Assembly (NCBI GenBank): GCA_913064725.1
Contig: CAJYAI010000001.1
Location: 1-64,000, forward strand
Direction of reading: 5' to 3'
DNA length: 64,000 nt
From: an uncultured Alteromonadaceae bacterium
GTDB lineage: Bacteria; Pseudomonadota; Gammaproteobacteria; Pseudomonadales; Halieaceae
This document shows, piece by piece, positions 15,886 through 52,081 of this stretch. Position numbers and translations under genes: made by a program. The notes under the pieces were generated by a model, which saw nothing but the letters and a program-made list of their open reading frames with translations, was not told the origin of the DNA and did not search any database. Positions within the stretch are counted from its first letter, which is position 1. The number at the start of each line of letters is the position of its first letter.

Positions 15886-15918
15886 CAAATGGATTACGGG
15901 GCCTTCAAATGGATTACG
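15886..15918 (+). promoter_or_regulatory. Tandem CAAATGGATTACG elements, 20-bp period
   Basis: The identical 13-mer CAAATGGATTACG occurs at 15886-15898 and 15906-15918. The 20-bp period equals about two helical turns, so both would lie on the same DNA face. They sit between a Rieske oxygenase (minus) and an acyl-CoA synthetase (plus). Near-identical 12-mers occur at 21687-21698 and, on the minus strand, 52070-52081. I read them as activator or repressor sites shared by the regulon (inference). Confidence 0.6.
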
Positions 15919-15992
15919 ACGCGGTTGTATGGATCATCGCCTTAAGTAGCTATCGCTGGATACACTGAGCGAAACGAGAGAAGGGGATTCCC

Positions 15993-17666
15993 GTGTCAAT
16001 AACCACCACTATCGAGGAACTGACTGCGCAAGGCGCTTTCTTTGAGGTTTGTGAGACAGCGACAGCCCGAGGAACGCTACCGGGTTTCAAGCATGCGCCG
16101 CAAACACTCACCGAAATCATTCAAAATGCACGTGGACATGGCGACCTTAATTTTATTGTTTCTGGTGACACACGTCTGAGTTTTGCCGAGTTCTTTGCGC
16201 GAGCGGACACACTGCGGGCGTTTCTAGAGTCAGAGGGCATGAAGTCCGGTGATCGTTTTGCCATTGCCATGCGCAACAATGCTGAGTGGCTCATTGGCTT
16301 CACTGCGGCTTTTCTTGCCGGTGCTACGGTTGTCCCTATCAATAGTTGGGGCCAGGCCCCAGAGCTGGCCTTTGCCGTTAACGATTGTGAAGCCTCTTGG
16401 CTTCTTTGCGATGATCAGCGTGCCCACATGCTCGATGCTCTACTTCCAACCGAGCGACGGTTGGTGGTTTATGAGCGGTCAGAGCCAGGATCTCGCCGCG
16501 GTGTCTGTTTTGAGGATGCGATCAGCAGTGACGCGCCTTCAGAGGTGACGCTACCGAGTGCCGATGAGGTCTGTCTGATTTTGTACACCTCGGGCAGCAC
16601 GGGAGCACCCAAGGGTGTGATTCACTGTCAGCAGGCGCTGTCGCAGGCAGTCTTTAACATGATGTTTACGGGCATGCTGACCATGACCGTTGAAGGTGGG
16701 CTACGTGAGCTCAGAGGTGGCGCACTGCAAGAAAAAGCCTTGCTTAACGTGCCGTTATTTCACGCGACAGGGCTTTTGGGCTCGTTTGTACTGCCCCTAG
16801 TTACCGCGCAGGGGATTGTCATGATTGCCAAGTGGGACGCACAGGAGGCGCTGCGACTCATCGAAAGCGAGCGCGTAACGCTGTTCAGCAGCGTGCCCGC
16901 CCTGGTAAAGGATCTACTGACCCAGCCCAATCTGCACGAATTCGACATTTCGTCACTGCAACGTGTGTCATCGGGCGGAGCTGCAATGCCGTCGGATCTT
17001 CCCGGTATCATTGAGACAAAAATTGATCAGGCCTATGCCTCAGGCGGTTATGGATTGACCGAGACTCTGGCTGTTGGGAGCCAAGCTGCAGGGGCGGTTT
17101 TTGATGCGAAACCGGCTGCGGCAGGCGTACAGTCACCTATCATGCAGGTGCGATGTGCCGCGCCGGATGGCACAGTTTTGCCAACAGGTGAGGCCGGTGA
17201 AATCGAAATGCAGGGTATGGCCTGTACCTTGGGTTATTGGAACAAACCTGATGCCAACGCGGCTATTTTTACCGAAGACGGCTGGATGAAAACCGGGGAC
17301 ATAGGTTACGTTGATGATGACGGCTATCTACACATTACAGGAAGGATTAAGGACATTGTCATCCGTGGAGGCGAAAATATCTTTCCGGGCGATACGGAGC
17401 AAGCCTGCTACCAGATAGACGGGGTTAAAGAATGCGTTGTGTTTGGTATTCCCGACGAGGTGATGGGCGAAGAGCTTGCCATGATTGTGCGGGTCGATGG
17501 CAGTGTGGTCACGAAAGATCGTATTCGCAGCGGGCTAAAGTCACGTATCGCGGCTTACAAAATACCGAAATATATCCGCTTGACCGAGGAGCCACTGATG
17601 CGTGGCGCGACGGAGAAGTTTGATAAGCGCGCCATCAGGCGAGCATTTATAGATCAAATGCCCTGA
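15993..17666 (+). CDS. Acyl-CoA synthetase (AMP-forming)
   Basis: A 557-residue ANL-superfamily ligase. The phosphate loop YTSGSTGAPKG is at residues 198-208, the A5 motif GGYGLTET near residue 350, and the hinge stretch KTGDIGYVDDDGYLHITGR near residue 430. The lysine-bearing C-terminal end (EKFDKRAIRR) is intact. It activates a carboxylate, here probably a steroid side chain or a degraded ring acid, as CoA thioester. Start GTG with GAGAAGGGG a few bases upstream. It is paralogous to the synthetase at 54496-56175; both share the EWLI...NSWG region near residues 97-120. It diverges from the second Rieske oxygenase across the tandem CAAATGGATTAC sites. Confidence 0.9.
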   Translation: MSITTTIEELTAQGAFFEVCETATARGTLPGFKHAPQTLTEIIQNARGHGDLNFIVSGDTRLSFAEFFARADTLRAFLESEGMKSGDRFAIAMRNNAEWLIGFTAAFLAGATVVPINSWGQAPELAFAVNDCEASWLLCDDQRAHMLDALLPTERRLVVYERSEPGSRRGVCFEDAISSDAPSEVTLPSADEVCLILYTSGSTGAPKGVIHCQQALSQAVFNMMFTGMLTMTVEGGLRELRGGALQEKALLNVPLFHATGLLGSFVLPLVTAQGIVMIAKWDAQEALRLIESERVTLFSSVPALVKDLLTQPNLHEFDISSLQRVSSGGAAMPSDLPGIIETKIDQAYASGGYGLTETLAVGSQAAGAVFDAKPAAAGVQSPIMQVRCAAPDGTVLPTGEAGEIEMQGMACTLGYWNKPDANAAIFTEDGWMKTGDIGYVDDDGYLHITGRIKDIVIRGGENIFPGDTEQACYQIDGVKECVVFGIPDEVMGEELAMIVRVDGSVVTKDRIRSGLKSRIAAYKIPKYIRLTEEPLMRGATEKFDKRAIRRAFIDQMP

Positions 17667-17693
17667 AGCGCGCATGTGCGGCGATGGCGATAT

Positions 17694-18464
17694 TTAAACA
17701 CCAAAGCCGCCGTCGACGGGTATCAGTTGGCCTGTCGTGTAGGCTGCGTGGTTTGAGGCGAGAAAGACGGCCATCTTGGCAACCTCCTCTGGTTGACCAA
17801 ACCGCTGTAGCGGTAGCGCGTTTTTTACGGTGTCGATCCACGCGTCATCAAATACCCCCTGTTCTTTTAGACGGAGGAAGATTCCCGTCTCGATTACACC
17901 AATAGCGATGCTATTGGCGCGGATGCCGTTGACACCTTCTTCTTTGGCAACGCCCTTGATTAGCTCCTCGACAGCCGCTTTGGGTGCAACTGAAAGAATG
18001 TCGAGCGGTGGGTATTTTAATAGTCCCGCAGAGCTGATGTGGAGGTAGCTGCCGCCACCCCCAGCGCGCAGATGGGGCAGCGTCGCATAAATGGCGTTGA
18101 ATGCGCCCTCCGCATCGGAGCGCATAACCCGCTGCCAAAGCTCAGGAGTGACCTCTGAAATGGGTGACTGCGGGATGTCGTAGCCCGTGGCGATAAACAC
18201 TGAGTGCAGACGACCGTGGTGTTTGAGGCCCTCATCGACAGCGGCTTTTAGCGTATCAATCTCCTGCAGAGATATGCGACAGCACGACACGCCACTGCCA
18301 TCACAGCCAAACTCAGAAACGAGCGCTTCAGCTCGCGCTTGATTGCTGTTGTAGCTCAGCATGAGCGGAACACCCGATGCAACGAGTTCTCGGCAGATGG
18401 CTTCGCCAACACCGCCACTGCCGCCAATGACCAAGGCAAAGCCCTCTGGGTAAGAATCGTTCAT
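17694..18464 (-). CDS. SDR-fold protein lacking the catalytic tyrosine
   Basis: A 256-residue Rossmann protein of the short-chain dehydrogenase family. The cofactor loop is GGSGGVGEA (about residues 14-22). The usual YxxxK motif reads S158-V-A-P-K162, so serine replaces the catalytic tyrosine while S145 and K162 remain at the correct spacing. The NNAG motif is replaced by ATGYD near residue 92. The C-terminal stretch TTGQLIPVDGGFGV is normal. It may be an SDR with altered chemistry or a binding or structural subunit. It ends 28 bases from the convergent acyl-CoA synthetase gene. Confidence 0.8.
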   Translation of the reverse strand: MNDSYPEGFALVIGGSGGVGEAICRELVASGVPLMLSYNSNQARAEALVSEFGCDGSGVSCCRISLQEIDTLKAAVDEGLKHHGRLHSVFIATGYDIPQSPISEVTPELWQRVMRSDAEGAFNAIYATLPHLRAGGGGSYLHISSAGLLKYPPLDILSVAPKAAVEELIKGVAKEEGVNGIRANSIAIGVIETGIFLRLKEQGVFDDAWIDTVKNALPLQRFGQPEEVAKMAVFLASNHAAYTTGQLIPVDGGFGV

Positions 18465-18573
18465 GCCGTCTCCTTAGTTATGAGTTTTTCGCATCTTTAG
18501 CGCGCGAGACCAGTTTTTAGCTGGGTTTGATCCGTGTTTCGGTAGCAGGGTAATACCAACAATTTACCGAGAC

Positions 18574-18597
18574 AAAAAAAACCCGCCAGCCGGCGGG
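18574..18597 (-). terminator. Rho-independent terminator after TonB receptor (minus strand)
   Basis: On the minus strand a 6-bp stem CCCGCC/GGCGGG (18582-18597) with a 4-base loop is followed by eight T (A at 18574-18581 on the plus strand). It lies just past the stop of the receptor gene. Confidence 0.92.
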
Positions 18598-18616
18598 TTC
18601 CTATCAAACGACTTGC

Positions 18617-21466
18617 TTATAGATCGAGTCGAATATCGAGACCGTAGGTCGCCGGGTTGCCCCACTGATGCACGGCATAGCCCAGCGATGGGCCGTAGTT
18701 GTACCCAAACGTGCGGTACTCTTCATCCGTAATATTGCGACCCCAGAGCGCGAGGCTAACGCTACGACTATCCTCGAGTTCTCTGCTGAAGGTTAGACGT
18801 GCATTGACAAGCGTTCTTTCCTGGTTAGTTGCTTGATCTAGGTTCACCGGAACCGGGTTATTGCCACTTCCGTAGTTGCCGGGCACGGTATTTATGCTCA
18901 CCGTCTCATCTTTATAAGCTGCTGACAGTTGGAAGTCTAACGAGTTACCACCTGCGTTCAAAAGTGCCCAATCCATGATGAGGTTGTACTCATTATCGGG
19001 TGTCAGACCTTGTGATGGCGGAATGTTTAAGCCTAGATAGATCGGGTAGTCGTCGAAGTCACGATTAGTGTAGGCATACTGGGCACGCAACTGGAGAGTG
19101 TCAGTGGCCAACCAAGCAATATCTAGTTCCAGCCCTTCAGTGCTGAATTTAGCCGCATTAACTACGTCGGTAGAGATTGATCCAGAGTCCGTCTTAACCA
19201 CGCTGACTTGAACGTCATCGTAATCGTAGCTGTAGTACGCGCCGTTGATGCGCAGTCGACCATCAGCGAGGGTTGATTTCACGCCCACTTCAAAGCTGGC
19301 GATCGTCTCCTCGGAGAAGTCATCACCTGTGCCGGTATCACTATTGAACGCGCCGCCGTTAAAACCCCCGGCACGATAACCGGTGGTGTAGCTCGCATAG
19401 AAGTTAGTGTTGTCATCCAGGCTGTACTCGGCCACTAAACGGCCGGACGTATTGCTGAACTCCTGCTCGTTGTAATTGCCATAAACGCCGGGTGTTTCTG
19501 GGATATTACCAATACCATCAAGGTCACCCACGTAGCCGAACGTCAGACTTCTGGGTGTATTTTGAAGTGTTAGCGAGGCAACCGCTCCATCTACCTGCGC
19601 CTGTACAATCTCTTCAGGCGTTCCCGCTGGGAATTGGCTTCTCACAAACGCCTCGGTACCGCTTATGGTGAGCGAGTTTGCGATGGAGTCACCAATAGCT
19701 GCTCCAATATAAGCCTCAACGCCTCCGGCAGGAAAGTCGCGCCAGCGGTAGGTCATGTACTTTGTCTCTTCGTTATAACGAAGACCTGCGGTAAATGACC
19801 ACTTGTCAGAGGCGCGCCATGTGACTTCGCCAAAGACTGATTGCGCATCGCCGCCTGCGTCAAAACCGCGGCTTGCAGAGCTCGCTAAAGTGTAAGTTGG
19901 ATTCTGAATATTTCGCATCTCGCCGAAATCTTCCCAATCGTAGAAGCCGACGACCCAATCCAACGAATCAGTTGAGCCTAAAATCTGCAGTTCGTGGCTT
20001 TCCTGCTCGTAGCTGTTGGCGAGGTCGGTCCAGAAAATACCGTCATCACCATTGGCGTTAATCGCATCGATCATGTCCAAAGCCAAGCTGAAATTATACG
20101 TCGGTACAGTCGGGTCTCGAGGATCATCCGATACGATCGGAATATTTGTGAACGCAGCCTCTTGCCCAGCGGGACAAGGCCCAGCTTGGAAGGTAGCTGT
20201 GCAGAACGGTAGAGAGGCAGGGACAACTTGACCAAACAAGGCGCCACCAATGGTTTGAAGAGTCAAGCTACTCCTTACACCTGACGCGACTGAGTTATCG
20301 ATACCGTCGAGATCGCTAAGTGAGCGGTCATTCATGGTTCTGTCACCATATATGTATTTGATGCTGACAGCCTCACTGAGCTCGTAATTTACAGTGAGCG
20401 TGTGTGTTTCGTTTTCGACATCGGCGAAGCTCGCAACATCGCTCGAACCGGCGCCAAAATATGAATCTCCGTCGTCCAGTACGCCATTGGCCCAGTCTAC
20501 GAAGTCATTTGACCAACCTAGGAACTGCTGTATCTGTGGAAGATTAGGTAGCAGACCGAACTGAACTGACTGTGCGACACCACCCGCAAGTGCCTGAACG
20601 GTAGCAATTTGCGATGTGCTGTCGATAGGGACGTTTGCTGGATCACCACCGGCAGCGAGATAGCCATTCAAAGCAGCGGTGGAGGGGTTGAGGCCTGTCG
20701 GCTTATTCCAGTTATCCAGCTCACCGTTTACATTGCTCTGCGAATAGGCGTAATCAACGCTCAATCGATCTGTCGCATCCCAGGCAAGTGCGACCCGGAA
20801 ACCATCACGGTCGATGCTATTGAAGCCGTCCATATTGGGGTTGGTATTGTCGTAGAACGCATCGCGCTGACGATCATTGACCGAAATCGCTGTGCGGAAC
20901 GTGTCGGAGAAGGGGATGTCAGCACGCACAGAGTACTCTTGGGCACTGTAGTTACCTATCGTGCCACGAACGGTAAGTCCCATTTCGTCAGATGGCGCTT
21001 TGCTGATGTAGTTAATCGCACCTGAGGTTGAGTTGCGGCCCGACAGCGTGCCCTGTGGACCTTTCAATATCTCGATTCGAGCAAGGTCTACAATGTCGGG
21101 CGAGCTGCCCTGATTCTTACCAATATAGACGCCATCCACGTACCGACCAGCTGCTGGGTCAACATCAATCTGAGGTTGGCCATCTCCGATACCACGTATC
21201 ACAAATGCTGTCGAAGAGCCGCCCGCTGGCGATCCATAGCCCTGAACCCCAACGACTGAATTAAGAAGGTCGAGATTATTATTGATTCCGCGTTCCTGGA
21301 TGTCTCTCTCGGTGAGGGCTTCAATCGAAATCGGAGTATCTTGAATGCTGGCTTCGCGGCGCTCTGCCGTTACTATGACTTCCTCGAGTTGCGCGAACGC
21401 CGTTTCAGCGGTCAGAACTGCCAGGACGGCCGTCGCTAGGAGCGACTTAGGGCTAGATGGCTTCAT
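18617..21466 (-). CDS. TonB-dependent outer-membrane receptor
   Basis: A complete 949-residue receptor. A signal peptide ends at about residue 25 (AETAFA/QLEE). A TonB-box-like stretch EEVIVTAERRE follows at about residues 28-38, then a plug domain with VIRGIG, a PQGTLSGRNS segment (about residues 137-146), then a 22-strand-type barrel. The C-terminus is LDIRLDL. This N-terminal form (EEVIVTA, TPISIEAL, GPQGTL.GRN.T.GAIN) is the version expanded in marine proteobacteria that use lipids, terpenoids and aromatic compounds. GAGG lies near the ATG. Its upstream region contains CAAACGGACTAC (21687-21698). Transport of a steroid is inference from context. Confidence 0.93.
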   Translation of the reverse strand: MKPSSPKSLLATAVLAVLTAETAFAQLEEVIVTAERREASIQDTPISIEALTERDIQERGINNNLDLLNSVVGVQGYGSPAGGSSTAFVIRGIGDGQPQIDVDPAAGRYVDGVYIGKNQGSSPDIVDLARIEILKGPQGTLSGRNSTSGAINYISKAPSDEMGLTVRGTIGNYSAQEYSVRADIPFSDTFRTAISVNDRQRDAFYDNTNPNMDGFNSIDRDGFRVALAWDATDRLSVDYAYSQSNVNGELDNWNKPTGLNPSTAALNGYLAAGGDPANVPIDSTSQIATVQALAGGVAQSVQFGLLPNLPQIQQFLGWSNDFVDWANGVLDDGDSYFGAGSSDVASFADVENETHTLTVNYELSEAVSIKYIYGDRTMNDRSLSDLDGIDNSVASGVRSSLTLQTIGGALFGQVVPASLPFCTATFQAGPCPAGQEAAFTNIPIVSDDPRDPTVPTYNFSLALDMIDAINANGDDGIFWTDLANSYEQESHELQILGSTDSLDWVVGFYDWEDFGEMRNIQNPTYTLASSASRGFDAGGDAQSVFGEVTWRASDKWSFTAGLRYNEETKYMTYRWRDFPAGGVEAYIGAAIGDSIANSLTISGTEAFVRSQFPAGTPEEIVQAQVDGAVASLTLQNTPRSLTFGYVGDLDGIGNIPETPGVYGNYNEQEFSNTSGRLVAEYSLDDNTNFYASYTTGYRAGGFNGGAFNSDTGTGDDFSEETIASFEVGVKSTLADGRLRINGAYYSYDYDDVQVSVVKTDSGSISTDVVNAAKFSTEGLELDIAWLATDTLQLRAQYAYTNRDFDDYPIYLGLNIPPSQGLTPDNEYNLIMDWALLNAGGNSLDFQLSAAYKDETVSINTVPGNYGSGNNPVPVNLDQATNQERTLVNARLTFSRELEDSRSVSLALWGRNITDEEYRTFGYNYGPSLGYAVHQWGNPATYGLDIRLDL

Positions 21467-21902
21467 TGTATTAACCTCATTGTTAGAGTTATTGGCGGAT
21501 AGAGTATTTCCGTCTTTTCTTACCTTGCCAGACCACTTGCATCAGTCAACCCCTTAGCGGCTGATTTAACGGGTGATCTTGCACTGCAACTTACTGCTGG
21601 CAGTTCTCAGTCTGTCGGCATTTTGTTCATATAGTGTGTCTGAAGCTGCCGGAGGAGGGAATGCCTGTCTATCCGTGGTTTTAGAACAAACGGACTACCT
21701 CGGAACGTCAAGATTTCGGGGGTTCTGCTGCGTCTTACCGACTTTTTCCAAATTTGTAACGCTTGACGGAAGCGAGGTAGCTTCGACAGTCAGCCGCCTT
21801 CCTCCGCGCGATCACCGAGGTTACGACTCGTAGATCAAGGCGGTGCTCTTAAAAACCGAACCTTAGTAAACTTACGAGGCTAGTCTTTCTAGCCGTCTGC
21901 CT
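21467..21902. other. Intergenic region upstream of TonB receptor
   Basis: A long non-coding stretch before the receptor. Nearest the gene are the ribosome site (GAGG) and, on the minus strand, a TTGACT that could serve as a -35 element, without a clear -10 partner. At 21687-21698 lies the shared CAAACGGACTAC element; TCCGT (21672-21676) and ACGGA (21690-21694) form a small inverted repeat around it. A weak 86-codon GTG-started frame (21573-21833) looks non-coding. Confidence 0.5.
21687..21698 (+). promoter_or_regulatory. CAAAYGGAYTAC element upstream of TonB receptor
   Basis: CAAACGGACTAC differs from the tandem sites at 15886 and 15906 only at the two pyrimidine positions. It lies about 220 bases upstream of the receptor start, on the strand opposite to the gene. 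Its role is inferred from its recurrence in intergenic DNA next to steroid genes. Confidence 0.5.
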
Positions 21903-22712: not shown

Positions 22713-23021
22713 TAAATACCTCCAAAACGTCGGTTATCGAACCATTCAAGCGCGGCAAACAAGCCCGGGCCAATTGTACTATGGGCAAAGGCAAATACCG
22801 TGTCTGGACCTCACGGGCCGACGGCATACCATGAACGTAAGTGCTGACACTGCCTGCCCACACTGCCTATCTAGAGTGCCAAGGCTAGCGGTAGTACTGC
22901 AAGCGCGGATGTCTGCGCAAACGGACCATGCAAGACCGACGCTCTCCATCACCGAGTATTGACAATGCTGTTAGGAGAGCAAAAAGTAGCTTTGAAGATC
23001 ATGGGGAGTGAGGTTAAAAGC
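22713..23021. other. Divergent intergenic region between two SDR genes
   Basis: No convincing gene is seen. CAAACGGACCAT at 22918-22929 matches the CAAAYGGAYTAC element at 10 of 12 positions and lies about 90 bases upstream of the plus-strand SDR. The plus-strand frame is open from 22959, but only the start at 23022 has a good ribosome site. Confidence 0.4.
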
Positions 23022-24356: not shown

Positions 24357-25502
24357 TCAAAAGTAAGCCTGTGTGTAACGAGCAAATTGTTGGTGCAAGC
24401 TCTCCGCGTCGAATCCAAAGTCAGACAGCTGATAATGATGTTCGGGACGACTTTCTCGTTCGTTAAAGGCTCGCCAGTGTGCCATTTCCGCCAACGCCTC
24501 AGACGTGAGCTCCAAGCCCGCGAAGTTGTAGATTTTCCGAATTTCCGTCTCGGGGTTAGCCACTGTGTCCATGAAGTAGAGGTCAAGATAGCGCGCCTCA
24601 GGGTGTGTGGCCCGATAGTCCATTGTTTTGGCCAGTCCCTTGGCCCATTTGGCTGCCCAATTCTGTGCCAGCGCAGGTGCATTCAAGTCATCGCTAAAGG
24701 GCTGCGCTAGCGCTGCCATCATGCTGCCGTAAGAGGGAATAACATCGATGGGGTGCCGATGTGTCTGCACCACCGCAGCGTCTGGGAAGCGTTTAAATAA
24801 ATACTCGGGGTAATGCAGGTGGTGTGGCGTTTTCAGTAACCAGCGCGTCCCCGTCTGTCCTTTCCTGCGCTTTTGCCACTGCAAAAACTGAAGGCACCGG
24901 TAAAGGTAGTCATAACCTGCAGACTGGTCTTGTTCATAAAGCCAGTCGCCAAACTCCGGAATGTGGGCGTAGCATTCGGGCACGGTGCTCATAAACGAGT
25001 GCTCGAGCAGCATGATCTCTTCGTCGGGTGCTCGGGCATCCATTGGGTGAATGGCCGCGAGCTCAGGTGCGGCTTCTAACATCGCTGTCACCTCAGCCTC
25101 TGAAATGCCGATGCGCTCATCCTCACGCTCGAAATCGTCGGCAAGCGGCACGGGTTGGCGGACTTCGTACCAAATGGGTGCTAGCAGTGATGTATCTGTC
25201 GCGATGGTGCGATGCAGCATGGTGGTGCCTGTTCTAGGCAGGCCCACGACGACAATTGGGCGTTCAATGGTCTCCTCAAGAATCTCGGGATGCTTCTCGA
25301 CCCAGGCCTCCATACGGAGTCGATTGGTCAGCAGATCGCGGAGTCTTGCGCCATGAAAGCCAACACCTACCTCGTTGAGCGAGGCCTCCGTGTTAAGGGC
25401 CTTGAGTAAGCGATCCAGTAGTGGCTCAAATTCATCATCGATAAATACGCGTCGCTCGGCCTGAACAAGGGCTTCCCGCTTAAGAGTCCGTATATCCAGC
25501 AT
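24357..25502 (-). CDS. PAPS-dependent sulfotransferase family protein
   Basis: A 381-residue protein with the 5'-phosphosulfate-binding loop VVVGLPRTGTT (PRTGTT at residues 89-94) and a downstream TPHHLHYPEYLFKRFPDA segment typical of bacterial sulfotransferases. Enzymes of this fold transfer sulfate from PAPS to hydroxyl groups. Sulfotransferase-like genes of this length also lie beside kshA in the actinobacterial cholesterol region (Rv3529c, from memory), so a conserved steroid-linked role is likely, though not necessarily sulfation. It is the last of a minus-strand series; a DUF1214 gene ends 106 bases upstream. Confidence 0.82.
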   Translation of the reverse strand: MLDIRTLKREALVQAERRVFIDDEFEPLLDRLLKALNTEASLNEVGVGFHGARLRDLLTNRLRMEAWVEKHPEILEETIERPIVVVGLPRTGTTMLHRTIATDTSLLAPIWYEVRQPVPLADDFEREDERIGISEAEVTAMLEAAPELAAIHPMDARAPDEEIMLLEHSFMSTVPECYAHIPEFGDWLYEQDQSAGYDYLYRCLQFLQWQKRRKGQTGTRWLLKTPHHLHYPEYLFKRFPDAAVVQTHRHPIDVIPSYGSMMAALAQPFSDDLNAPALAQNWAAKWAKGLAKTMDYRATHPEARYLDLYFMDTVANPETEIRKIYNFAGLELTSEALAEMAHWRAFNERESRPEHHYQLSDFGFDAESLHQQFARYTQAYF

Positions 25503-29951: not shown

Positions 29952-31169
29952 TCAGCCGTTAAAAATGGACGCCGATGGCCCGATGTCAGATGCTAGACCG
30001 TTCAGATAATCGGAATCCATACCGTAAAATTGAATCGCATTTTCTCCGAGAATCTGTCGACCCGCGTCAGCATCAAATCCCTTGAACGTATCCAAATAGT
30101 ATTGTTCGGTATTTGGCCATGTGCCCTCAGGATGCGGGAAGTCGCTGCCCCACATGATTTGCTTGAGACCTATTTGATCTTTTAAGTCGAGGTCGCGCCG
30201 CGGCACACAGGACGCGCCAATGCCGCAGTTTCGGGCGAAGTATTCGCTGGGCGCCATCGACAAGTGTGAGCGGAAGTCGCCCAGCTTCGCGGAGAATTGA
30301 ATGTCCGTGTAGTTATGGTCAAGTAGCATCAGCCAAGACGGCACCATGAACATAGTTCCGCCCTCGACAACCATGGCTTTTAGGCGAGGGAATCGCTCAA
30401 AAACACCGCCCCACAACATAAACGTAAGCGGGCGGTACAACCAAAACATGACCTCGGAAACGTAGGCTCCCATCGCGCCCGGCAACTCAGCACTGCGATC
30501 CTCGTTCGGGAACGCTGGTCCAAAGTATTCGTTGTGCGGCGCCGGTCCGGAATGAAAATGAATGACGATGCCCAAGTCTTGGCAGGCTTCCCAGAAGGGA
30601 TCGTATTTCACATCGTGGTAAGCGGCATGCTCTCCCCACATAGTTGGCAGCATGACACCGCTTAGGCCATTATCTGCGCACCATCGAACAGCCTCTACCG
30701 CCTGGGCCACATCGAATAAAAGTGGTATCGATGCTACACCGTAATGCCGCTTAGGATCGTTAGCGACCAGCTCGGACAACCAACGGTTGTGCGCCATGGC
30801 ACCGGCCCATTGAAGCTCGGGGACCGCATCTTTAGGAGACAGACCCAGTCCAGCACCAAACGGCGGTGTGTTTTGCTCTGTAATGCCATCCGGAAAAATG
30901 ATTTCCGCGGCAATGCCGTCTTTGGCCAGCATTTTATGGCGCTCTTTGTAATCCCACGCGCCCGTCAATTCCTGCTTTATGGGTGCGCGCCACTCGTCAT
31001 TGATTTCTTTGATGAGGAACTGCGACTCAGCCTTGTCCATCATGTCGATTTGGATATCGACAGCCATATCGATGAAGTCATGGTATTTCGAGTCGACGTA
31101 GGGCTTGTATTGCGATATCGGCAGTCCAGCGTGGCAATCAGTGGAAACAACAGTTAATCGATCAGTCAT
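29952..31169 (-). CDS. Amidohydrolase-2 family metal-dependent hydrolase
   Basis: A 405-residue TIM-barrel hydrolase. Metal ligands can be seen: D-C-H in STDCHAG (residues 9-15), the histidines of VIHFHSG, and the late aspartate in MWGSDFPHPEG. This set is typical of the ACMSD/amidohydrolase-2 group, which decarboxylates or hydrolyses carboxylates. It is the first gene of a minus-strand series leading into the Rieske and SDR pair. A weak CAAAYGGAYTAC-like sequence (31259-31270, minus strand, 9 of 12) lies 90 bases upstream. Confidence 0.83.
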   Translation of the reverse strand: MTDRLTVVSTDCHAGLPISQYKPYVDSKYHDFIDMAVDIQIDMMDKAESQFLIKEINDEWRAPIKQELTGAWDYKERHKMLAKDGIAAEIIFPDGITEQNTPPFGAGLGLSPKDAVPELQWAGAMAHNRWLSELVANDPKRHYGVASIPLLFDVAQAVEAVRWCADNGLSGVMLPTMWGEHAAYHDVKYDPFWEACQDLGIVIHFHSGPAPHNEYFGPAFPNEDRSAELPGAMGAYVSEVMFWLYRPLTFMLWGGVFERFPRLKAMVVEGGTMFMVPSWLMLLDHNYTDIQFSAKLGDFRSHLSMAPSEYFARNCGIGASCVPRRDLDLKDQIGLKQIMWGSDFPHPEGTWPNTEQYYLDTFKGFDADAGRQILGENAIQFYGMDSDYLNGLASDIGPSASIFNG

Positions 31170-31328
31170 ATCGTCCTCATTTAAGCAGTTCTACTTGGGC
31201 TAATACGACAAACATAGGGGACGAGATGTACGAGAGCAACTTGTGTAAGGGCGCTGTCATAGTCCAACTGTGTTGTTTGATGATGTCATCTGGCTGGCCT
31301 TAACCGGTAAAACAGAAATGACAGAGAC

Positions 31329-32803: not shown

Positions 32804-34423
32804 ATGGTCCGTATGTGGGGTGTTTTTGTTCTAGGGGTTTTGTCTTCGTTAGCCTTATCGGCGCAGGCGAGTGATCGACCAAACGTGGTTGTCATTGTTG
32901 CCGATGACCTGGGATGGGCTGATGTTGGATTCCACGGCAATCAAATAATAGACACGCCCTCGCTGGATCGGATCGCTGCCGAGGGCGCCCAGCTGAATCG
33001 TTTTTACACCACCCCGATATGCTCTCCCACGCGAGCCGCGCTGATGACTGGTCGAGATCCAATACGCTTGGGTGTCGCTTACTCCACAATTATGCCCTGG
33101 CAAAACAACGGTATTCATCCAGATGAAACCTTCCTGCCGGAGCTGTTTCTCAGCGCGGGATATCAGACGGCTATGGTGGGCAAATGGCATTTAGGCCACG
33201 CCCAGCAGTCATACCATCCTAACTCCCGCGGTTTTGAGCACTTTTACGGGCATCTTCACACCGAGGTCGGATTTTACCCGCCGTTTGCGAGCCTTGGCGG
33301 TAAAGATTTTCAGCGCAACGGGGTTTCGATAGACGATCAGGGCTATGAGAGCTACTTACTTGCCGACGAGGTTAGTCGTTACATTCGCGAACGCGATACA
33401 GAAAAGCCATTTTTTATTTATATGCCCTTTATTGCGCCACACACCCCCCTCGATGCGCCGGAAGAGCTGCAAACCAAGTATGCCGACATGGCGGATGATC
33501 GTGGTAAGTCGCGCAGTAAAATGGCAGACAGTACACGCTTTATGGCCAAGGTGACGGGGCGCACGAGCGCCAGACCCATGTACGCCGCCGTGGTTGATGC
33601 AATGGACCAGGCGATTGGCCGCGTGCTTGATACCTTGGATCGCGAGGGATTGGCAGACAACACGATTGTCTTGTTTTTCTCGGATAACGGCGGTGCGGTC
33701 TACGCTATCGGTGGTGCTGATAACGCGCCACTGCGGGGCGGGAAGGGTGACACTTTTGAGGGTGGTATCCGGGTTGTTGCAGCGATGCGATGGCCGGAAA
33801 AAATTCCCATGGGGAGTCGGGTTGACTCAATCATGTCGGTAATGGACGTACTACCCACGCTCGCATCGGCTGCCGGCATCGACGCCGATACACAGTTTAG
33901 GCTCGATGGTCGCAATATGTTGCCTGCGCTGATCGACGGGCAAACGATGCCGCGAGAAAAGTTGCTCTTTTTTATCTCAGAAACACCGTTTAAAAATCAC
34001 GTAAATGTCACGGCGTTCAACGATGAGTGGAAACTCATACAACGCATTGAGACTGGGTTTAGCTCCGTCGATGTGACGCAGTTTTTGTTCAATATCGCTG
34101 AGGACCCCCATGAGCATAACAACCTCGCACAGCAGCACCCGGATATTGTGGCTGATCTAGCCGACGAGATTCGTCATTGGCGTAATCTTTATCCTGTGGC
34201 AGGTACGCGGTCACAGTTGATGCCGCCGCCAGGATGGAAGGCACCGCTTGATTGGACGGATTATCCGCAGCAAGAGACGGTGCTTCAGTCTGAGCCATCG
34301 GGGGGTATGCCGCCGGAGGATGTTATTCGCATGTTGGACTGGCAATACGGTGAGAATGGACGGCTCATTTACAACTGCGAGCCCTATCGGTGGGCGGGTG
34401 GCGGCTTATGCAAACGGCAGTAG
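32804..34423 (+). CDS. Secreted type I sulfatase (arylsulfatase family)
   Basis: A 539-residue sulfatase with a signal peptide cut near residue 22 (SAQA/SDRPNVV). The C-x-P-x-R maturation motif is C73-S-P-T-R, so C73 would be converted to formylglycine. Metal aspartates D34 and D35 (ADDLGW) and the late FFSDNGG are present. Such enzymes hydrolyse sulfate esters of sugars, aromatics or steroids in the periplasm. The C-terminal tail carries an unusual two-cysteine end (NCEPYRWAGGGLC). No maturase gene is in the window. It diverges from the MBL-fold hydrolase. Confidence 0.92.
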   Translation: MVRMWGVFVLGVLSSLALSAQASDRPNVVVIVADDLGWADVGFHGNQIIDTPSLDRIAAEGAQLNRFYTTPICSPTRAALMTGRDPIRLGVAYSTIMPWQNNGIHPDETFLPELFLSAGYQTAMVGKWHLGHAQQSYHPNSRGFEHFYGHLHTEVGFYPPFASLGGKDFQRNGVSIDDQGYESYLLADEVSRYIRERDTEKPFFIYMPFIAPHTPLDAPEELQTKYADMADDRGKSRSKMADSTRFMAKVTGRTSARPMYAAVVDAMDQAIGRVLDTLDREGLADNTIVLFFSDNGGAVYAIGGADNAPLRGGKGDTFEGGIRVVAAMRWPEKIPMGSRVDSIMSVMDVLPTLASAAGIDADTQFRLDGRNMLPALIDGQTMPREKLLFFISETPFKNHVNVTAFNDEWKLIQRIETGFSSVDVTQFLFNIAEDPHEHNNLAQQHPDIVADLADEIRHWRNLYPVAGTRSQLMPPPGWKAPLDWTDYPQQETVLQSEPSGGMPPEDVIRMLDWQYGENGRLIYNCEPYRWAGGGLCKRQ

Positions 34424-36728: not shown

Positions 36729-36938
36729 CGCTCCACCACGAGGCCGGAACTTCGATGGCTTGATTGCCGTCTGTGTTGCTTTTCGAGCGTAACTGCCTTC
36801 GCTAACGTACCTTTACTAGGCCAGATTGAGCTCTTTCACGAACTGTCCGCGATCGCAGGTAACCCTCCAAAGGGACGATGGTCTGTTTGCCGGGGAAGGT
36901 ATACTGCTTGTCAACACTGTTGGTCACTGGAAGAGTCA

Positions 36939-38159
36939 ATGCTGGATAAAGCATACGAGCCACTAACCTTGGGTCCGATTACCCTGCCGAACCGGTTTAT
37001 TAAGGCGGGTGCTAACGAGAATATGTCGAAGGCAGGACGTCCTACGCGAGCCATGCGGTTACATCATGAGGCTCTGATCAAGGGTGGCGTTGGTATGACG
37101 ACCATGGCCTACGTCGCCGTAGAGAAAGACGGCCGAACACTGCCCGATCAAGTCTGGGTTCACGATGAGGCTATGGCCGACCTCCGTGTGGTCACAGATG
37201 CGGTTCATGCCGAAGGCGGTAAGATCGCGGCACAGATTACGCATGGTGGTAGTTTTGTCACTGGTGTGTTCATTCCAAGACGTCTTCAGAGCTCTGTATC
37301 TGGCTTCAATCCCGCCGGGCTGTTGCGAGGTAACCTATTGCGTCGTGCCATGAATGAGCGGGATATGGACCGTATGGTTGATCTCTTTGTGAGCGCCGCC
37401 GAACGCTGCTACGAAGCCGGATTTGACGCAGTAGAAATCCACATGGGCCATGGTTATCTCCTCAACCAGTTTCTATCGCCGCTCGATAATAATCGACAAG
37501 ATGAATACGGTGGCAGTGCTGAAAATCGTGCGCGTTTCCCAGCGCGTGTCCTCACGGCGGTGAAACAAGCCGTTGGTGATCGTATGGCCGTGATCGCCAA
37601 GATAAATGTCGCTGACGGCAGGAGCCGTGGGGCACAACTTGAAGACGGCCTTGTGACGGCTCAGATTCTAGAAGCTGCAGGTGCCGATATGCTGGTGTTA
37701 TCAGGCGGGCGGAACGTCGAATCGGGCTGGTTTACCTTCGGAAGTAATCTCAATTTAGACGCGATGCTGCGGGTCATAGGAAAATGGTCGCTCAGCGGTA
37801 TGGCGATCGCCTCGACGCAGGCATCTGTGCCTAAAATAGACTTTAAGGAACTGTATTTTTGGGAGTATTCAACCAAGATACGCGATGCTGTCGATCTACC
37901 GCTTGCCTACCTTGGCGGTGTCAGGTCATCGGATAATGTGGCGCAGTGTATGGAGGCGGGTTTTGACGCTGTCCAGCTGGCGAGGCCACTGTTGCGCGAG
38001 CCAGATCTAGTGAATCGGTGGCGCGATCAAGGCGGCACGTCGCTCTGCGATAACTGTAATAGCTGTGTTGCTTATATTTACCACCCTGCGGGTACATGGT
38101 GCATCCATCAGCCACCGAATGCGTTGGTAGACAATCAGGTATTTGCATCAACGGGGTAG
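36939..38159 (+). CDS. NADH:flavin oxidoreductase (OYE-like) with C-terminal four-cysteine cluster
   Basis: A 406-residue FMN TIM-barrel protein. The active-site region VEIHMGHGYLLNQFLSPLDNNRQDEYGG is canonical. The C-terminus has C370, C373, C376 and C388 (C-x2-C-x2-C-x11-C), as in the 2,4-dienoyl-CoA reductase/trimethylamine dehydrogenase group, where they bind [4Fe-4S]; the FAD/NAD(P) domains of those larger enzymes are missing. It probably reduces or oxidises an enone or a dienoyl-CoA. A CAAACAGACCAT (minus strand, 36878-36889; 9 of 12 to the shared element) lies about 50 bases upstream. Confidence 0.85.
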   Translation: MLDKAYEPLTLGPITLPNRFIKAGANENMSKAGRPTRAMRLHHEALIKGGVGMTTMAYVAVEKDGRTLPDQVWVHDEAMADLRVVTDAVHAEGGKIAAQITHGGSFVTGVFIPRRLQSSVSGFNPAGLLRGNLLRRAMNERDMDRMVDLFVSAAERCYEAGFDAVEIHMGHGYLLNQFLSPLDNNRQDEYGGSAENRARFPARVLTAVKQAVGDRMAVIAKINVADGRSRGAQLEDGLVTAQILEAAGADMLVLSGGRNVESGWFTFGSNLNLDAMLRVIGKWSLSGMAIASTQASVPKIDFKELYFWEYSTKIRDAVDLPLAYLGGVRSSDNVAQCMEAGFDAVQLARPLLREPDLVNRWRDQGGTSLCDNCNSCVAYIYHPAGTWCIHQPPNALVDNQVFASTG

Positions 38160-45714: not shown

Positions 45715-45767
45715 ATGTCGATCACCGCGTAACGTACGCATACTAAAAACGAAGCAAGGATAGTTTC

Positions 45768-46637: not shown

Positions 46638-46653
46638 TAACCGACTGCGCGTC

Positions 46654-46683: not shown

Positions 46684-46736
46684 GTGTTCAGACTACTGGT
46701 GTGTAACTGACGTCGTGTTTTTGGTGATCAGAGACG

Positions 46737-47198
46737 TTATTCAGGGAAGTAAATGCTAATAGCGTCGACAATACAGGCTGGCTTCTCAGCGCCTTCCGCC
46801 TGCATTACGATGCGCAGTATCATTTTGATACCGCCGCTCGCTTCCTCTACCGACACCACGGTGCCGGTTGCAGATAGCTTGGAGCCCACCGTTACGGGTG
46901 AGGGGAAGCGTGTCTTTTCTGTGCCATAGTTCACGCCCATCGATATACCCTTCACCTCAATGATTTCAGGCATAAATTTTGCGGCGAGTGACATGGTGAG
47001 ATAACCGTGAGCGATGGTGGTGCCAAAGGGTCCGTTGGCAGCCCGCTCGGCATCGATATGGATCCACTGGTGATCTCCTGTCGCTTCAGCAAACTGATCG
47101 ATACGCTCTTGGGTGATTTCCATGCTGGGACTGGGCCCCAGAGTTTTACCAACTAGGCCGTAAAGTTCTGCGGGTGACTCGATAATGGTTTTCGACAT
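46737..47198 (-). CDS. MaoC-family R-specific enoyl-CoA hydratase
   Basis: A 153-residue hot-dog protein. The hydratase-2 motif is D42-H43-Q-W-I-H47 followed by PFGTTIAHGYLT (57-68); D42 and H47 are the expected catalytic pair. Length and sequence match the actinobacterial single-domain hydratase HtdZ/Rv0130 type (ATGDHQWIH.D.ERAA.GPFGTTIAHG). It would hydrate a trans-2-enoyl-CoA in side-chain or ring beta-oxidation. It diverges from the SDR at 47516 across a 317-base gap. Confidence 0.9.
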   Translation of the reverse strand: MSKTIIESPAELYGLVGKTLGPSPSMEITQERIDQFAEATGDHQWIHIDAERAANGPFGTTIAHGYLTMSLAAKFMPEIIEVKGISMGVNYGTEKTRFPSPVTVGSKLSATGTVVSVEEASGGIKMILRIVMQAEGAEKPACIVDAISIYFPE

Positions 47199-47515
47199 GG
47201 TGCTCTCCTATTACGTTTCGTGCGTGTGTTGGCATTGAACCTTGCTAGCGGGGGTTGAGCGTGTGTCCTACAACGTTTTGTCGCGGTGTCAGCATGCGTT
47301 GACCAAATTGTATACACCATCGAAGCGATACTGAAAACAGGGCTTAGCCATGTAAAACCGGTCGACGCAGTTGGAGCGTCCTCAGCTACGGTAATTGCTT
47401 ACTGTGCCACAGATTACGCTACAGGTATCATCGCTTTAGACGATGACGGCTACCGGCAGTAGTGCGACCGTATCAATCAGAATCGCCCGTTAATGCATCG
47501 CTATTGGAGGCAAAC
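47199..47515. other. Divergent intergenic region (MaoC / SDR)
   Basis: No gene is supported here. CAAATTGTATAC at 47304-47315 matches the CAAAYGGAYTAC element at 9 of 12 positions, near the background level. A good ribosome site GGAGG (47506-47510) belongs to the SDR start at 47516. Confidence 0.4.
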
Positions 47516-48292: not shown

Positions 48293-50282
48293 GAGAGGTC
48301 CAGGCGCGCTCGCGAATCGTGGGCGAGTAGAACGGGTCCGTGTCGGGGTTGGTGCAGCACACGCCGTAAATATCGCCTGAGTCGCCATTGTCATTGGCTA
48401 GAAGGTTGGCTTTTTCGGCCTGAACACTGCAGCTATCAGAAAGCGGATTGACGCCGGCCGCCTGGCACTGCAGCGTGCTCCAGCGGCAGCTTGGCGTTTC
48501 TAGAACCCGAGCATAATAAAACGCGGATTCGCCCTTTACATAGCTAGGGTCCTCCCAAACCATGCACAAGTTTGCGTGGCCGGGCGCAGTGGCCGCACAG
48601 CTATTCATATCAACACCCAGCCCCACTGTTTCCTCGCCGAGTACATCAACGACCCGCTCGTGTGTTGCCCCCGAATCGTCGACCCAGCCTTTGATGATCT
48701 GAATCCGCTCGAGTGGATTCGCAGGGTGCATATCGGTGCCCTGATCACGTTGGGCGCTGATGAAGAACCGAGGCGGGGCATCGGCATCGGTGCGCTGCAG
48801 GACACCACCCATGGGGACACCCGCTGAATAAGCCTGCTCAAGTGCGTCGGTGGCTTCGCACAGGTTTTCGTCATAATCGCCGGCAAAGAATCGAACAATG
48901 GGGCGTGTTCCTGACGTCGCATAGGTTTCACGACTGCGCATGGCCTCGAAAATGGCATCTCGGCGATTTTCTTCAGCCCATACCACCGCTAAACCACCGG
49001 GATTTGAAACGAAGTGGTCCTGCAGGTTTCTAAATGTGGCGTCGCGAGAACCGAGGTGCCCGACGTAGTTTTTCTCCATGGCGCCCCCGGAAGTGGCGGT
49101 ATGGGTGTCGGTACTTCCTATAAAGCCTTGTCTGAATGGGTTAAGTCCGCTGTCCTGCTCAAGCGCAAGCCCGTCTTTGAGCACATTGCGCATCATGTTT
49201 CTCCGATGGAAGCTGGCAACATCGACGGGCAAGCCTCGATCTGACCACATTTTGCCTTTCACGCTACCCAACATGGCGAGATTGTCAGAGGGTATTTGCT
49301 CGAAGCTGCACAGCTCGTCTTCAGTGTCGATACCCATGCCCGCCAAACGGTCAAATCGACACTCGGAAGCCCCTTTGTGCTGCACCAGCTCAACCAGTGG
49401 TTCGATTTCCAATCGATCGATAGCCTGTTGTTCGGTCGCAGGATCCGGAAACATCAAGCCGCCGCCGAGATTGGGGTTGTGCGGGATCGCTAAAACATCG
49501 CAATCGTTATCAGCATCCAGACACTGGGATCGCAATTGTCGCCAGAGGTCAGGCACTGAGCTGTCGGTCTCAAAAACCGAGATAGGAAGGCGCGTGACTG
49601 TTTCATTTTTGAAAATCACATTGCGGTGCAAATTGGCCATTTCTTGGCCCTGCGTGTACTCGTAGCCGACAAATGTGGTGAAGCTACAGTCCTCAGATCG
49701 ATCGTAATGCCGCTCCGCCGCGGCTTGAATGTCATCCCAGGTAGAGAGGGCGTTCGCCTCGCAGTCGCCCAGGGAGCAGACCATACCTCGTTCGGGTGCG
49801 TCACCCTCCATGCCGCCAGAGACAGTCCAGAGACTGGCTGCATAGAGCTGAACCCAAAGGTTTTTTGCACGCGACATCATGCAAACAGGCGCCCACCAGG
49901 CTGCGTTGCGCCAATTGCTGTCGCAGAGGGCAACTTCACCGAGAAACTGGCCATGATCAGTCACTGCAGCGAAGTCGATAGGGCGGTCAATTTGTGCGGA
50001 TATAGTTTGCTCTCCGTAGGCATCGGGAAGGGTGATGACCTGTCCCTTCGCGTATTCGTAGGCACCGTCGGGATCATTCTTTTGATTTGAAAGGAAGGAA
50101 TCAAAGGAGTAGCGCGTGTGGATATGAAGATCGCCAAATAGCGGTAGCTTTGTGTCTGATGACACGGCGCAGGGCAATGCCTCATTTCCCGATACCAAGA
50201 CGGAGACTAGGGCAAATGAAGTCCCGACGGCGAAACGAATGAGGAGTTGCGCTGTCGTGCGGATTCGATTTATGGGCATCAT
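48267..50282 (-). CDS. DUF3604 protein (PHP-like), exported
   Basis: A 671-residue protein with a signal peptide or anchor (about residues 14-33) and the GDLHIHTRYSFDSF metal motif. A later DHGQFLGE and STDTHTATSG correspond to the motifs of the paralogue at 39558. It has about 18 cysteines, several in an insertion (CQAAGVNPLSDSCSVQ and others) that the paralogue lacks, which fits disulfides in an exported protein. The last 26 bases overlap the SDR stop. The function is unassigned. Two copies of this family in one steroid region suggest a shared step. Confidence 0.82.
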   Translation of the reverse strand: MMPINRIRTTAQLLIRFAVGTSFALVSVLVSGNEALPCAVSSDTKLPLFGDLHIHTRYSFDSFLSNQKNDPDGAYEYAKGQVITLPDAYGEQTISAQIDRPIDFAAVTDHGQFLGEVALCDSNWRNAAWWAPVCMMSRAKNLWVQLYAASLWTVSGGMEGDAPERGMVCSLGDCEANALSTWDDIQAAAERHYDRSEDCSFTTFVGYEYTQGQEMANLHRNVIFKNETVTRLPISVFETDSSVPDLWRQLRSQCLDADNDCDVLAIPHNPNLGGGLMFPDPATEQQAIDRLEIEPLVELVQHKGASECRFDRLAGMGIDTEDELCSFEQIPSDNLAMLGSVKGKMWSDRGLPVDVASFHRRNMMRNVLKDGLALEQDSGLNPFRQGFIGSTDTHTATSGGAMEKNYVGHLGSRDATFRNLQDHFVSNPGGLAVVWAEENRRDAIFEAMRSRETYATSGTRPIVRFFAGDYDENLCEATDALEQAYSAGVPMGGVLQRTDADAPPRFFISAQRDQGTDMHPANPLERIQIIKGWVDDSGATHERVVDVLGEETVGLGVDMNSCAATAPGHANLCMVWEDPSYVKGESAFYYARVLETPSCRWSTLQCQAAGVNPLSDSCSVQAEKANLLANDNGDSGDIYGVCCTNPDTDPFYSPTIRERAWTSPIWLSTTR

Positions 50283-50406
50283 AGTGTCTTATATCACCTT
50301 TTCCGTTAGCGCTATCGATGTCTGCGACATAGACGGAGCACCTGTAGTTGCACTAGTTGCGCTAGCCGCGTGAGCGCACTGTGGTGTTGCATTGCGGTAA
50401 CTGGTC

Positions 50407-51165
50407 TTACATAGACGCATCGGGGCGCATCATCGCGTCGTGCGCGCCGTCTATGAAAAGCGTAGACCCCGCGATGTAGCTACCCTCAGGTGAGAGAAGA
50501 AACATCACAAGATTAGCCACATCCTCGGCTTGCCCGGGGCGTCCAATGGGGATGGAGTCCATGAACGCTTTTATTAATTCACCGTATTCCTCGCTCTGTT
50601 CCACAGCCTGAGTCATAGGGGTCTGAATGTAACCTGGCGCGATAGCGTTAAAAGAAACACCCTGATGCGCTAATTGAGGGGATTTTCGGCGCATGTAGCG
50701 CGCGATCGCATTCTTACTGCTGGCATAGCACTCATGGCCGTGAAGCGTCTTACCCATGGCCACGGCCGCGGCTTCATCCCCGTCAAGTAGCAGGTCGATA
50801 AGGTCCGCTCGCGTGCTCATGGGAGCTGAATTGGAGCTGATCGCTACGATACGACCGCCGGGCCTGATAAGGGGTGCCAGCCCCTCAATCAAATCGACCG
50901 AGCCGAAGTAATTGATTTGCAGGATTTTGTCGGGCTGGGGGAACTGCGACGCAACACCGGCACAGGTGATAAGTCCGTCAATTTCGGGGTGATCTGCGCC
51001 AACTCGCGCAATCACATCCTGTCGCGCACTCGGATCGCCCAGGTCGACCAGATAATCGCCATCCTTCAGGTCAATAATAATCACGGTATCACCACGGGCT
51101 CGAAGCTGGTGTTTAATGGCCGCGCCAATGCCGGTTGCACCGCCCGATATGATGTATTTCGCCAT
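50407..51165 (-). CDS. hsdA: 3-alpha-hydroxysteroid dehydrogenase/carbonyl reductase (HsdA-like)
   Basis: A 252-residue SDR. ATG at 51165 is chosen because AAGGA lies about ten bases upstream; a longer frame starts at 51186. It follows the Comamonas testosteroni 3-alpha-HSD/carbonyl reductase pattern: SGGATGIGAA loop, INYFG, an extra helix between the catalytic serine (AISSNSAP) and the tyrosine (ECYASSKNA), and the C-terminus DGAHDAMMRP against DGGIDAVMRP. That enzyme interconverts 3-alpha-hydroxy and 3-oxo steroids with NAD. A second SDR starts upstream at 52031, 50 bases before this gene, so the two probably form an operon. Confidence 0.8.
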   Translation of the reverse strand: MAKYIISGGATGIGAAIKHQLRARGDTVIIIDLKDGDYLVDLGDPSARQDVIARVGADHPEIDGLITCAGVASQFPQPDKILQINYFGSVDLIEGLAPLIRPGGRIVAISSNSAPMSTRADLIDLLLDGDEAAAVAMGKTLHGHECYASSKNAIARYMRRKSPQLAHQGVSFNAIAPGYIQTPMTQAVEQSEEYGELIKAFMDSIPIGRPGQAEDVANLVMFLLSPEGSYIAGSTLFIDGAHDAMMRPDASM

Positions 51166-51215
51166 GAGTGTTGTTTCCTTGTTCATGATTTAGCCATTAC
51201 AACGCGGCGGTGCTG

Positions 51216-52031
51216 CTATTTGTCAGCGCGCGATCGGGCCATAGTTGCTTCAATAGCGCTACCGGGGAGTGCCGCCATACCCCCGTCTACCTCGATTATT
51301 TTGCCACTGACAAAACTGGCGGCACTCGAGGCGAGATACAGGGCTGCAAGAGCGATATCCTCGGGCTGCCCCAATCTGCCTTGTGGAATCCAGCGAACAG
51401 TGGCCTCGTACATGTCCTCATTTTGCGTGATAAACGCGGTGCTCGGGGTTTCTATTGCACCCGGAGCAATACCGTTTACTCGAATCTGCGGCGCCAGCTC
51501 GTAAGCCAGTATACGTGTCATCTGGTCCATTCCCGCCTTTGCAGCGCCGTAAGCCGCAAAGTGGCGATCGACCATCCAGCTGAGTGCGGAGGACACGTTG
51601 ACTATACTCGCCGCGGGTGACGCCTTGAGTAAAGGGAGTGATAAGTGAGTTAGGGTATAGGCCGACGTCAGATTGATATCCAATGTGTTCACAAAGCGCG
51701 ACTTGGTTACCTTCGTTAACGATCCATAACCTTGACCGGGTGCCCCTGCGTTATTTATCAGAATGTCCAGTACGCCCCAACGCGACGTCAAGGTCTCCAC
51801 AACAGCGGTAAGAGCAGACTCGTCTGTCACGTCACAAGCAAATGTCAGCGCCTCGCGTCCTTGACTTTCGACCTCGTGAGCGACGGCTTCGAGGTCGGAC
51901 TCTGTCCGCGCGACAAGCGCGACGTCGGCACCCATTTCGGCAAAGGCGGTGGCGATTCGTGCGCCAATACCCTTTCCTGCGCCGGTAATTAATGCCTTCT
52001 TGCCCTGAAGGCTGAAGTGGTCGGTAATCAC
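51216..52031 (-). CDS. SDR family oxidoreductase
   Basis: A 271-residue SDR. GTG at 52031 is chosen because AAGGA lies six bases upstream, although the frame is open to 52106. TGAGKGIGAR is the cofactor loop, NNAGAPG is near residue 98, and the catalytic set is SSALSWMVDRHFAAYGAAK. The C-terminal FVSGKIIEVDGG is classical. CAAATGGACTAC lies about 40-50 bases upstream on the coding strand (52070-52081), in the region shared with the divergent SDR at 52197. Confidence 0.84.
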   Translation of the reverse strand: MITDHFSLQGKKALITGAGKGIGARIATAFAEMGADVALVARTESDLEAVAHEVESQGREALTFACDVTDESALTAVVETLTSRWGVLDILINNAGAPGQGYGSLTKVTKSRFVNTLDINLTSAYTLTHLSLPLLKASPAASIVNVSSALSWMVDRHFAAYGAAKAGMDQMTRILAYELAPQIRVNGIAPGAIETPSTAFITQNEDMYEATVRWIPQGRLGQPEDIALAALYLASSAASFVSGKIIEVDGGMAALPGSAIEATMARSRADK

Positions 52032-52069
52032 GGTAAAATCCTTATCGCATGGGTGTAAAAATAGTGGCT

Positions 52070-52081
52070 GTAGTCCATTTG
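52070..52081 (-). promoter_or_regulatory. CAAAYGGAYTAC element between divergent SDR genes
   Basis: On the minus strand the sequence is CAAATGGACTAC, one base different from each of the two tandem sites at 15886 and 15906. It lies 39 bases upstream of the minus-strand SDR start. Regulatory function is inference from recurrence. Confidence 0.5.

Follow-up and report, generated by a model that had tools for sequence, protein, structure and literature searches.

The stretch analysed here, 64,000 nucleotides of contig CAJYAI010000001.1 from an uncultured marine Halieaceae bacterium of Luminiphilus type (the window), carries a predicted steroid degradation cluster in which a 12-bp element, CAAAYGGAYTAC, recurs between genes. 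Pfam models run over the 54 window genes recognise KshA-type oxygenases, coenzyme A (CoA) ligases, short-chain dehydrogenases (SDRs), TonB receptors, a KstD-like flavin adenine dinucleotide (FAD) enzyme, a P450 and an hsa block. Past the window the contig has hsaC-like, fadD3-like and CoA-transferase (ipdA-like) genes, along with more genes that probably act on rings C/D. We assigned the labels ksh, kst, hsa, ipd and fadD3 from family names and gene order.

Four copies of the 12-mer are present in the window, all intergenic. Two of them (15886-15897 and 15906-15917, plus strand) lie between a KshA-type Rieske oxygenase gene (14803-15825, minus strand; Pfam KshA_C and Rieske) and a divergent acyl-CoA ligase gene (15993-17666, plus strand). 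The best NCBIfam model for this ligase is steroid-24-oyl-CoA synthetase, at 358 bits with a cut-off of 750. A third copy (21687-21698, plus strand) is found ahead of a TonB-dependent receptor gene (18617-21466, minus strand), and the fourth (52070-52081, minus strand) separates a leftward SDR gene (51216-52031, minus strand) from a rightward one (52197-52958, plus strand), receptor and SDRs all being Pfam assignments. This fourth copy falls inside a mechanical 5' extension of the leftward SDR open reading frame (ORF; 51216-52106). We took it as intergenic because orthologues align from the start at 52031, which has an AAGGA Shine-Dalgarno sequence ahead of it. An earlier note made from these letters had placed the four copies correctly in position, strand and intergenic setting, and proposed a regulon operator, possibly for the LuxR-type regulator encoded at 58569-59711 (minus strand).

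The 12-mer and the dyad around it

Dinucleotide shuffles of the window averaged 0.03 copies of the element and never reached four (0/100). With up to two mismatches the window holds 16 copies against 13.8 expected, and 30 of 100 shuffles reach 16. Because this is the chance level, the tight element alone stands out. The exact 12-mer occurs seven times in its own genome (113 contigs, 2.63 Mb, 98% complete), while a reversed-pattern control occurs not once. The three copies outside the window (L005, L006 and L007) all fall within ORFs. Judged by eye, these ORFs resemble a LysR regulator (313 residues), a metallo-hydrolase (216 residues) and a large membrane-associated protein (712 residues). The binomial probability of at least four of seven copies falling in the 64-kb window, 2.4% of the genome, is 1.2e-5.

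Alignment of the sites places CAAAYGGAYTAC as one half plus the spacer of an 18-bp inverted repeat, ATAGTCC-n4-GGACTAT. The element singled out by the earlier note is thus real, but it is only half of a site, and the regulon is larger than was proposed. Ten dyad sites are distributed across eight intergenic regions of the window. The gap between the KshA and ligase genes contains a distal copy (15880-15897) and, 20 bp from it, a proximal copy (15900-15917), both on the plus strand, and the TonB receptor gene is preceded by a single site (21681-21698, plus strand); the exact 12-mer forms part of each. The SDR pair has operator A (52070-52087) and operator B (52153-52170, GTAGTCT-n4-TGACCAT), both on the minus strand. 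A near-perfect operator (6/7; 56250-56267, minus strand) is common to the divergent genes for a second ligase (54496-56175) and an NMO-family protein (56330-57409), and an operator-like dyad (5/7; 47427-47444, plus strand) lies in a divergent MaoC/SDR gap. Weaker operators are located in the 21963/22959 SDR gap (22912-22929, plus strand, with CAAACGGACCAT at 22918-22929), ahead of an amidohydrolase-family gene at 29952-31169 (31259-31276, minus strand) and ahead of a flavin mononucleotide (FMN) oxidoreductase gene at 36939-38159 (36862-36879, plus strand).

With a spacer of 4 the two halves of the ten sites are complementary at 39 of 70 positions, against 9 to 20 for the other spacers from 0 to 15. 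With random left flanks the maximum over spacers averages 24.0 (standard deviation 2.0), and none of 20,000 sets reaches 39, a P value that is optimistic because some weaker sites were selected partly by resemblance. With the best site left out, 33 of 63 positions remain self-complementary at spacer 4. We also considered the 20-bp tandem at the ligase promoter as a direct repeat (AraC/XylS-like), but the single dyads at other promoters led us to abandon this reading.

Conservation and predicted promoter placement

Four related genomes (G002, G004, G015 and G048) have clusters largely syntenic with the window. At the first-ligase promoter, seven of the 10 close sequences, counting the window, carry exact copies of both 11-mers, and in L048 and L049 the second copy has one mismatch. 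The SDR-pair promoter keeps the blocks TAGTCCATTT, GATAGAACGAA and TAGTCTrAATTG in all 12 rows, and GTAGTCCrTTTGTTCTAAA is retained before the TonB receptor gene in eight of the nine rows aligned. At the NMO/ligase-2 site, ATnGTC is invariant in 28/28 rows, Porticoccaceae records among them.

The earlier note had also listed four weaker relatives of the element. The one at 22918 is conserved as CAAAyGGACCAT in the window, L042, L045, L047 and L065 and has diverged in L051; rows L041 and L044, whose contigs end there, are not part of this comparison. The one at 31259 has a match at the same place in two of three relatives and none there in the remaining one. Near 36878 there is a conserved element, its position being 36868-36879 instead, and the 36862 site reads CAAAGGGACGAT in 4/4 rows including the window. 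The relative at 47304 is not conserved; in the same gap it is the site at 47427-47444 that is kept, with its ATCGTCT block in 8/8 aligned rows.

Most sites are thus conserved at orthologous promoters, as a regulon operator would be, and the sites are enriched in promoters of one pathway. Outside the window every exact copy in the genome is within a gene, and the window copies are retained at the orthologous promoters of close relatives. Because genome scan and relatives' promoters both favour it, the regulon operator that the note proposed is well supported. The regulon does not cover every operon of the cluster, since a position weight matrix (PWM) of the 12-mer, run over window promoters with gaps of at least 50 bp, finds no site in most of them, including that of the KshA gene at 11084.

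Two models were built from relatives only: R1 from 50 site sequences, none from the window genome, and R2 from 44. L045 and L065 of the 22918 set are in neither training set. Searched against the whole own genome at an expect value (E) of at most 10, R1 returns three matches, all on this contig: 52069-52087, which is operator A of the SDR pair and the best match; 15902-15919; and 67310-67330. The last has no counterpart in the training set. It lies 3.3 kb past the window, between divergent ipdA-like (ring C/D) and fadD3-like genes. The motif TGTCATAGTCynnATGGnnGATG is present there in 28/28 rows from Halieaceae to Porticoccaceae/SAR92, a count that includes the own genome and takes in some genomes twice.

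This promoter contains a single conserved dyad (contig C1 67312-67329; L073:3312-3329) with -10-like boxes equidistant on both sides, and looks like a two-way promoter switch. Across 27 distinct promoters, with gaps of 12 to 35 scanned, -10-like hexamers peak at a centre of -42.5 in both directions (3.0 and 3.09; next best 1.9 and 2.41). Beside the operator, at L073 ~3270-3300, the window's genome and close Luminiphilus relatives share a conserved block, TTAGTCTnTTTrTGCACGCTAaG, in which a further weak site and the fadD3 -10 region may be located. The HTCC2080 record also has a nearly perfect dyad (ATAGTCCATATGGATGG), immediately behind the hsaC-like gene (L125:7746-7763).

Activators usually bind at class II or class I positions, centred near -41 and -61. 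We placed the sites relative to predicted -10 boxes, with hexamers counted as -12 to -7 and most boxes chosen by eye from conserved blocks. In the first group, the predicted centre is -42.5 for ipdA (29 of 30 matches, one at -43.5), -41.5 for the FMN oxidoreductase gene (3 of 4, one at -42.5), where the -10 box would be TATACT, and -40.5 for operator A and the rightward SDR gene (12 of 13, one at -38.5). The conserved box CACGATAGAACGAA at 52104-52117 probably comprises overlapping back-to-back -10 boxes for both SDR genes. In the second group, the predicted centre is -61.5 for the second ligase (8/8), -60.5 for NMO (7/7 tried) and -62.5 for the amidohydrolase gene (3/3 tried). For the leftward SDR gene it is -62.5 or -63.5 (12 matched of 13 tried), operator B in the window being at -62.5. 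The proximal copy of the first-ligase promoter would lie at -64.5 in seven and -62.5 in three of the 10 close promoters; in the window the value is -64.5, from a predicted box TACACT at 15961-15966 (plus strand) that reads TA[AC]ACT in 10/10 close rows. Most predicted centres therefore cluster near -42 or between -61 and -65, as would suit an activator at class II and class I promoters.

Several other features of the cluster were observed. A sulfotransferase gene (24357-25502) and a sulfatase gene (32804-34423) lie within it, a hint of sulfated sterols. A 222-residue protein (53835-54503) has no Pfam or NCBIfam match and about 60% identity in six loci. The gap at 18465-18616, before the SDR gene at 17694-18464, has a strongly conserved terminator-like hairpin and T run in 11 aligned rows.

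The LuxR-type protein as candidate binder

The regulator encoded at 58569-59711 has 380 residues and lies directly behind an hsaF-like gene on the same strand. Its C-terminus is LuxR-type, with a LuxR/GerE helix-turn-helix. An NCBIfam LuxR model (BagY/FevT) matches residues 309-373 at E 8.8e-9, far below the model cut-off, and PF00196 is present in relatives at about 46% identity and less. Pfam finds just HTH_30 and HTH_23 in the protein itself, both below cut-off. Among solved structures the C-terminus matches VpsT, DosR/DevR and GerE best, at E values (0.17-0.38) not significant alone. An AlphaFold model has a mean predicted local distance difference test (pLDDT) score of 80 and a predicted template modelling (pTM) score of 0.55. 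The N-terminus appears to comprise GAF-like and PAS-like parts, judging by secondary structure and by Foldseek matches to phytochromes, a phosphodiesterase (PDE) GAF domain, EL222 and VqmA, all with low template modelling (TM) scores. The closest relatives of the regulator are from Halieaceae, several of them Luminiphilus, and HTCC2080, a cultivated relative, carries an orthologue with 79% identity. Two hsa-like loci with regulator genes close to Porticoccaceae ones carry other labels, Rhodospirillaceae (L123) and Akkermansiaceae (L124), and are possibly mis-binned contigs.

Regulator and operator occur together. Matches to the regulator at E<=1e-30 are found in 25 of 57 genus genomes, the own genome included, the best match in each other genome having 79-96% identity. 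An R2 match at E<=3 is present in 23 of the 25 genomes with the regulator and in 2 of the 32 without (Fisher 1.5e-11). When 12 genomes known to have supplied training DNA are removed, the figures are 13/14 and 1/31; some training loci (L101, L104 and L109-L120) have no genome handle, and a few may remain among these genomes. Exact-pattern counts give a weak signal: 43 against 24 for the reversed pattern in the 25 genomes with the regulator, and 31 against 33 in the other 32. Of 29 genus loci besides the window's own, one per genome (L008-L036), 7 of the 15 from genomes with the regulator and 2 of the 14 from genomes without it have an intergenic match or one in a likely 5' extension (L019 and L024). 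The recognition helix, LGIARNTARAQLRSIFAKTG, is identical across 34 regulator sequences including the window's. Among the 54 window genes and 20 further contig genes scanned, the protein is the sole DNA-binding regulator recognised.

On these comparisons of sequence, the dyad is a real, conserved operator for a regulon of steroid genes. Its strong half and spacer make up the 12-mer, and we estimate at roughly 70% the probability that the dyad is the operator of the cluster's LuxR-type regulator, bound by a dimer and acting in activation. The 58569-59711 protein is the most likely binder and activator; dyad geometry, co-occurrence and its standing as the sole such regulator recognised support what the earlier note had offered as a possibility.

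Besides the choice of -10 boxes by eye, a number of observations weigh against this assignment. The left halves of both first-ligase sites match at 3/7 positions and that of the 22912 site at 2/7. The 22912 site, ahead of gene 21963, would be centred at -61 in three relatives and, counting by eye, at about -52.5 in L042 and in the window, and the -61.5 obtained for the TonB site in 8/8 promoters tried uses a -10 box uncertain by a few bases. The first-ligase copies are 20 bp apart except in L042 (16 bp), L046 has a single copy, at the proximal distance, and no exact copy exists in the three distant ligase promoters (L050-L052), where the best sequence is CAGATGGTCTA. R1 recovers 2 of the 10 window sites genome-wide and 3 of 10 when the window alone is searched. 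Degeneracy of the sites makes individual matches in the own genome weak (best E 1.05 for R1 and 0.28 for R2). An R2 match is missing from two genomes with the regulator (G032 and G041) and present in two without it (G012 and G053), and the 12-mer PWM finds no site at the regulator gene's own promoter. Because regulator and cluster travel together, the co-occurrence ties the operator to that pair and not to the protein alone. Another regulator could also have been missed, since nine contig ORFs were unscanned and Pfam barely detects this one.

These last two points bear on the strongest alternative, that the dyad is the operator of a regulator encoded elsewhere, such as a TetR-type steroid repressor, and that the LuxR-type protein acts on something else. 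Co-occurrence cannot tell cluster from regulator, and the regulator scan covered part of the contig, not the rest of the genome. We nevertheless consider this unlikely. The site spans 16 bp between its outer TA pairs and in this resembles NarL-type sites of the LuxR family, and placement near -42 and -61 fits an activator. The position of the LuxR-type gene behind the hsaF-like gene and the invariance of its recognition helix across the lineages that keep the site also argue against it.

It is quite improbable that the LuxR-type protein binds the sites as a repressor released by a steroid metabolite. Repressors more often cover -35 to +10, and the predicted centres here, -40.5 to -64.5, are at or upstream of -35. 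There is a precedent in Comamonas, where passages of two papers report a LuxR-type repressor of a steroid gene (PMC6678751, PMC8700777). A similarity arising by chance, or a general promoter element outside any regulon, would agree with the two-mismatch count and the weak individual E values, but is very hard to reconcile with the orthologous-promoter conservation, the dyad test, the confinement of all three genome-wide R1 matches to one contig and an R2 match in just 2 of 32 genomes without the regulator.

Proposed mechanism and known systems

In the activator mechanism that we favour, the 58569-59711 protein would bind the dyad as a dimer and switch promoters on. From about -42 it would make class II contact with RNA polymerase at the ipdA-like and fadD3-like genes and at those for the FMN oxidoreductase and the rightward SDR. 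The contact would be class I, from about -61 to -65, at the genes for both CoA ligases, the TonB receptor, the leftward SDR, the NMO-family protein and the amidohydrolase. A steroid, or a product of steroid breakdown, may be what the protein's GAF-like and PAS-like domains sense. Uptake, side chain, rings A/B and rings C/D would then all fall within the regulon. The operator could serve as a sequence tag for locating steroid regulons in uncultured marine genomes, and operator and candidate regulator are suggested parts for a steroid biosensor.

LuxR-type steroid regulators are already known. Passages on TeiR/TesR of Comamonas describe a LuxR-type positive regulator that is encoded in a steroid degradation cluster and needed for induction, and mention TeiR-like genes in P. 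stutzeri Chol1 (PMC6678751, PMC8399759, PMC8700777). The protein studied here is likewise a LuxR-type regulator within a steroid cluster, a likeness drawn from these descriptions and not from sequence. TeiR differs in being reported as a polar membrane protein with kinase activity, and the same passages name no TeiR operator. A sponge-derived Halieaceae isolate grew on cholesterol, and a word search of that paper gave no mention of regulation (PMC5790920). Literature searches, as far as the sources were available in part, gave no description of this operator or regulon.

Operators of the NarL, DosR and LuxR families are also inverted half-sites, spanning about 16-20 bp. The window's half-site differs, being RGACTAY with a 4-bp spacer, and the sensor is predicted to be GAF-like and PAS-like and not a receiver or homoserine-lactone domain. 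In actinobacteria the KstR and KstR2 regulons are described as covering cholesterol uptake, side chain and A/B rings, and the C/D rings (PMC6678751). The same parts of the pathway would be covered here. KstR and KstR2 are two TetR repressors with separate regulons, whereas here one dyad stands before both pathway halves, with activator-like placing. Marine Halieaceae and Porticoccaceae/SAR92 may keep the entire 9,10-seco pathway, from outer-membrane receptor to ring C/D removal, under one soluble GAF-PAS-LuxR activator. A single dyad code, read at two distances from the promoter and with lone sites driving divergent operons in both directions, would then replace the actinobacterial two-repressor split, a broader proposal that we regard as evenly poised.

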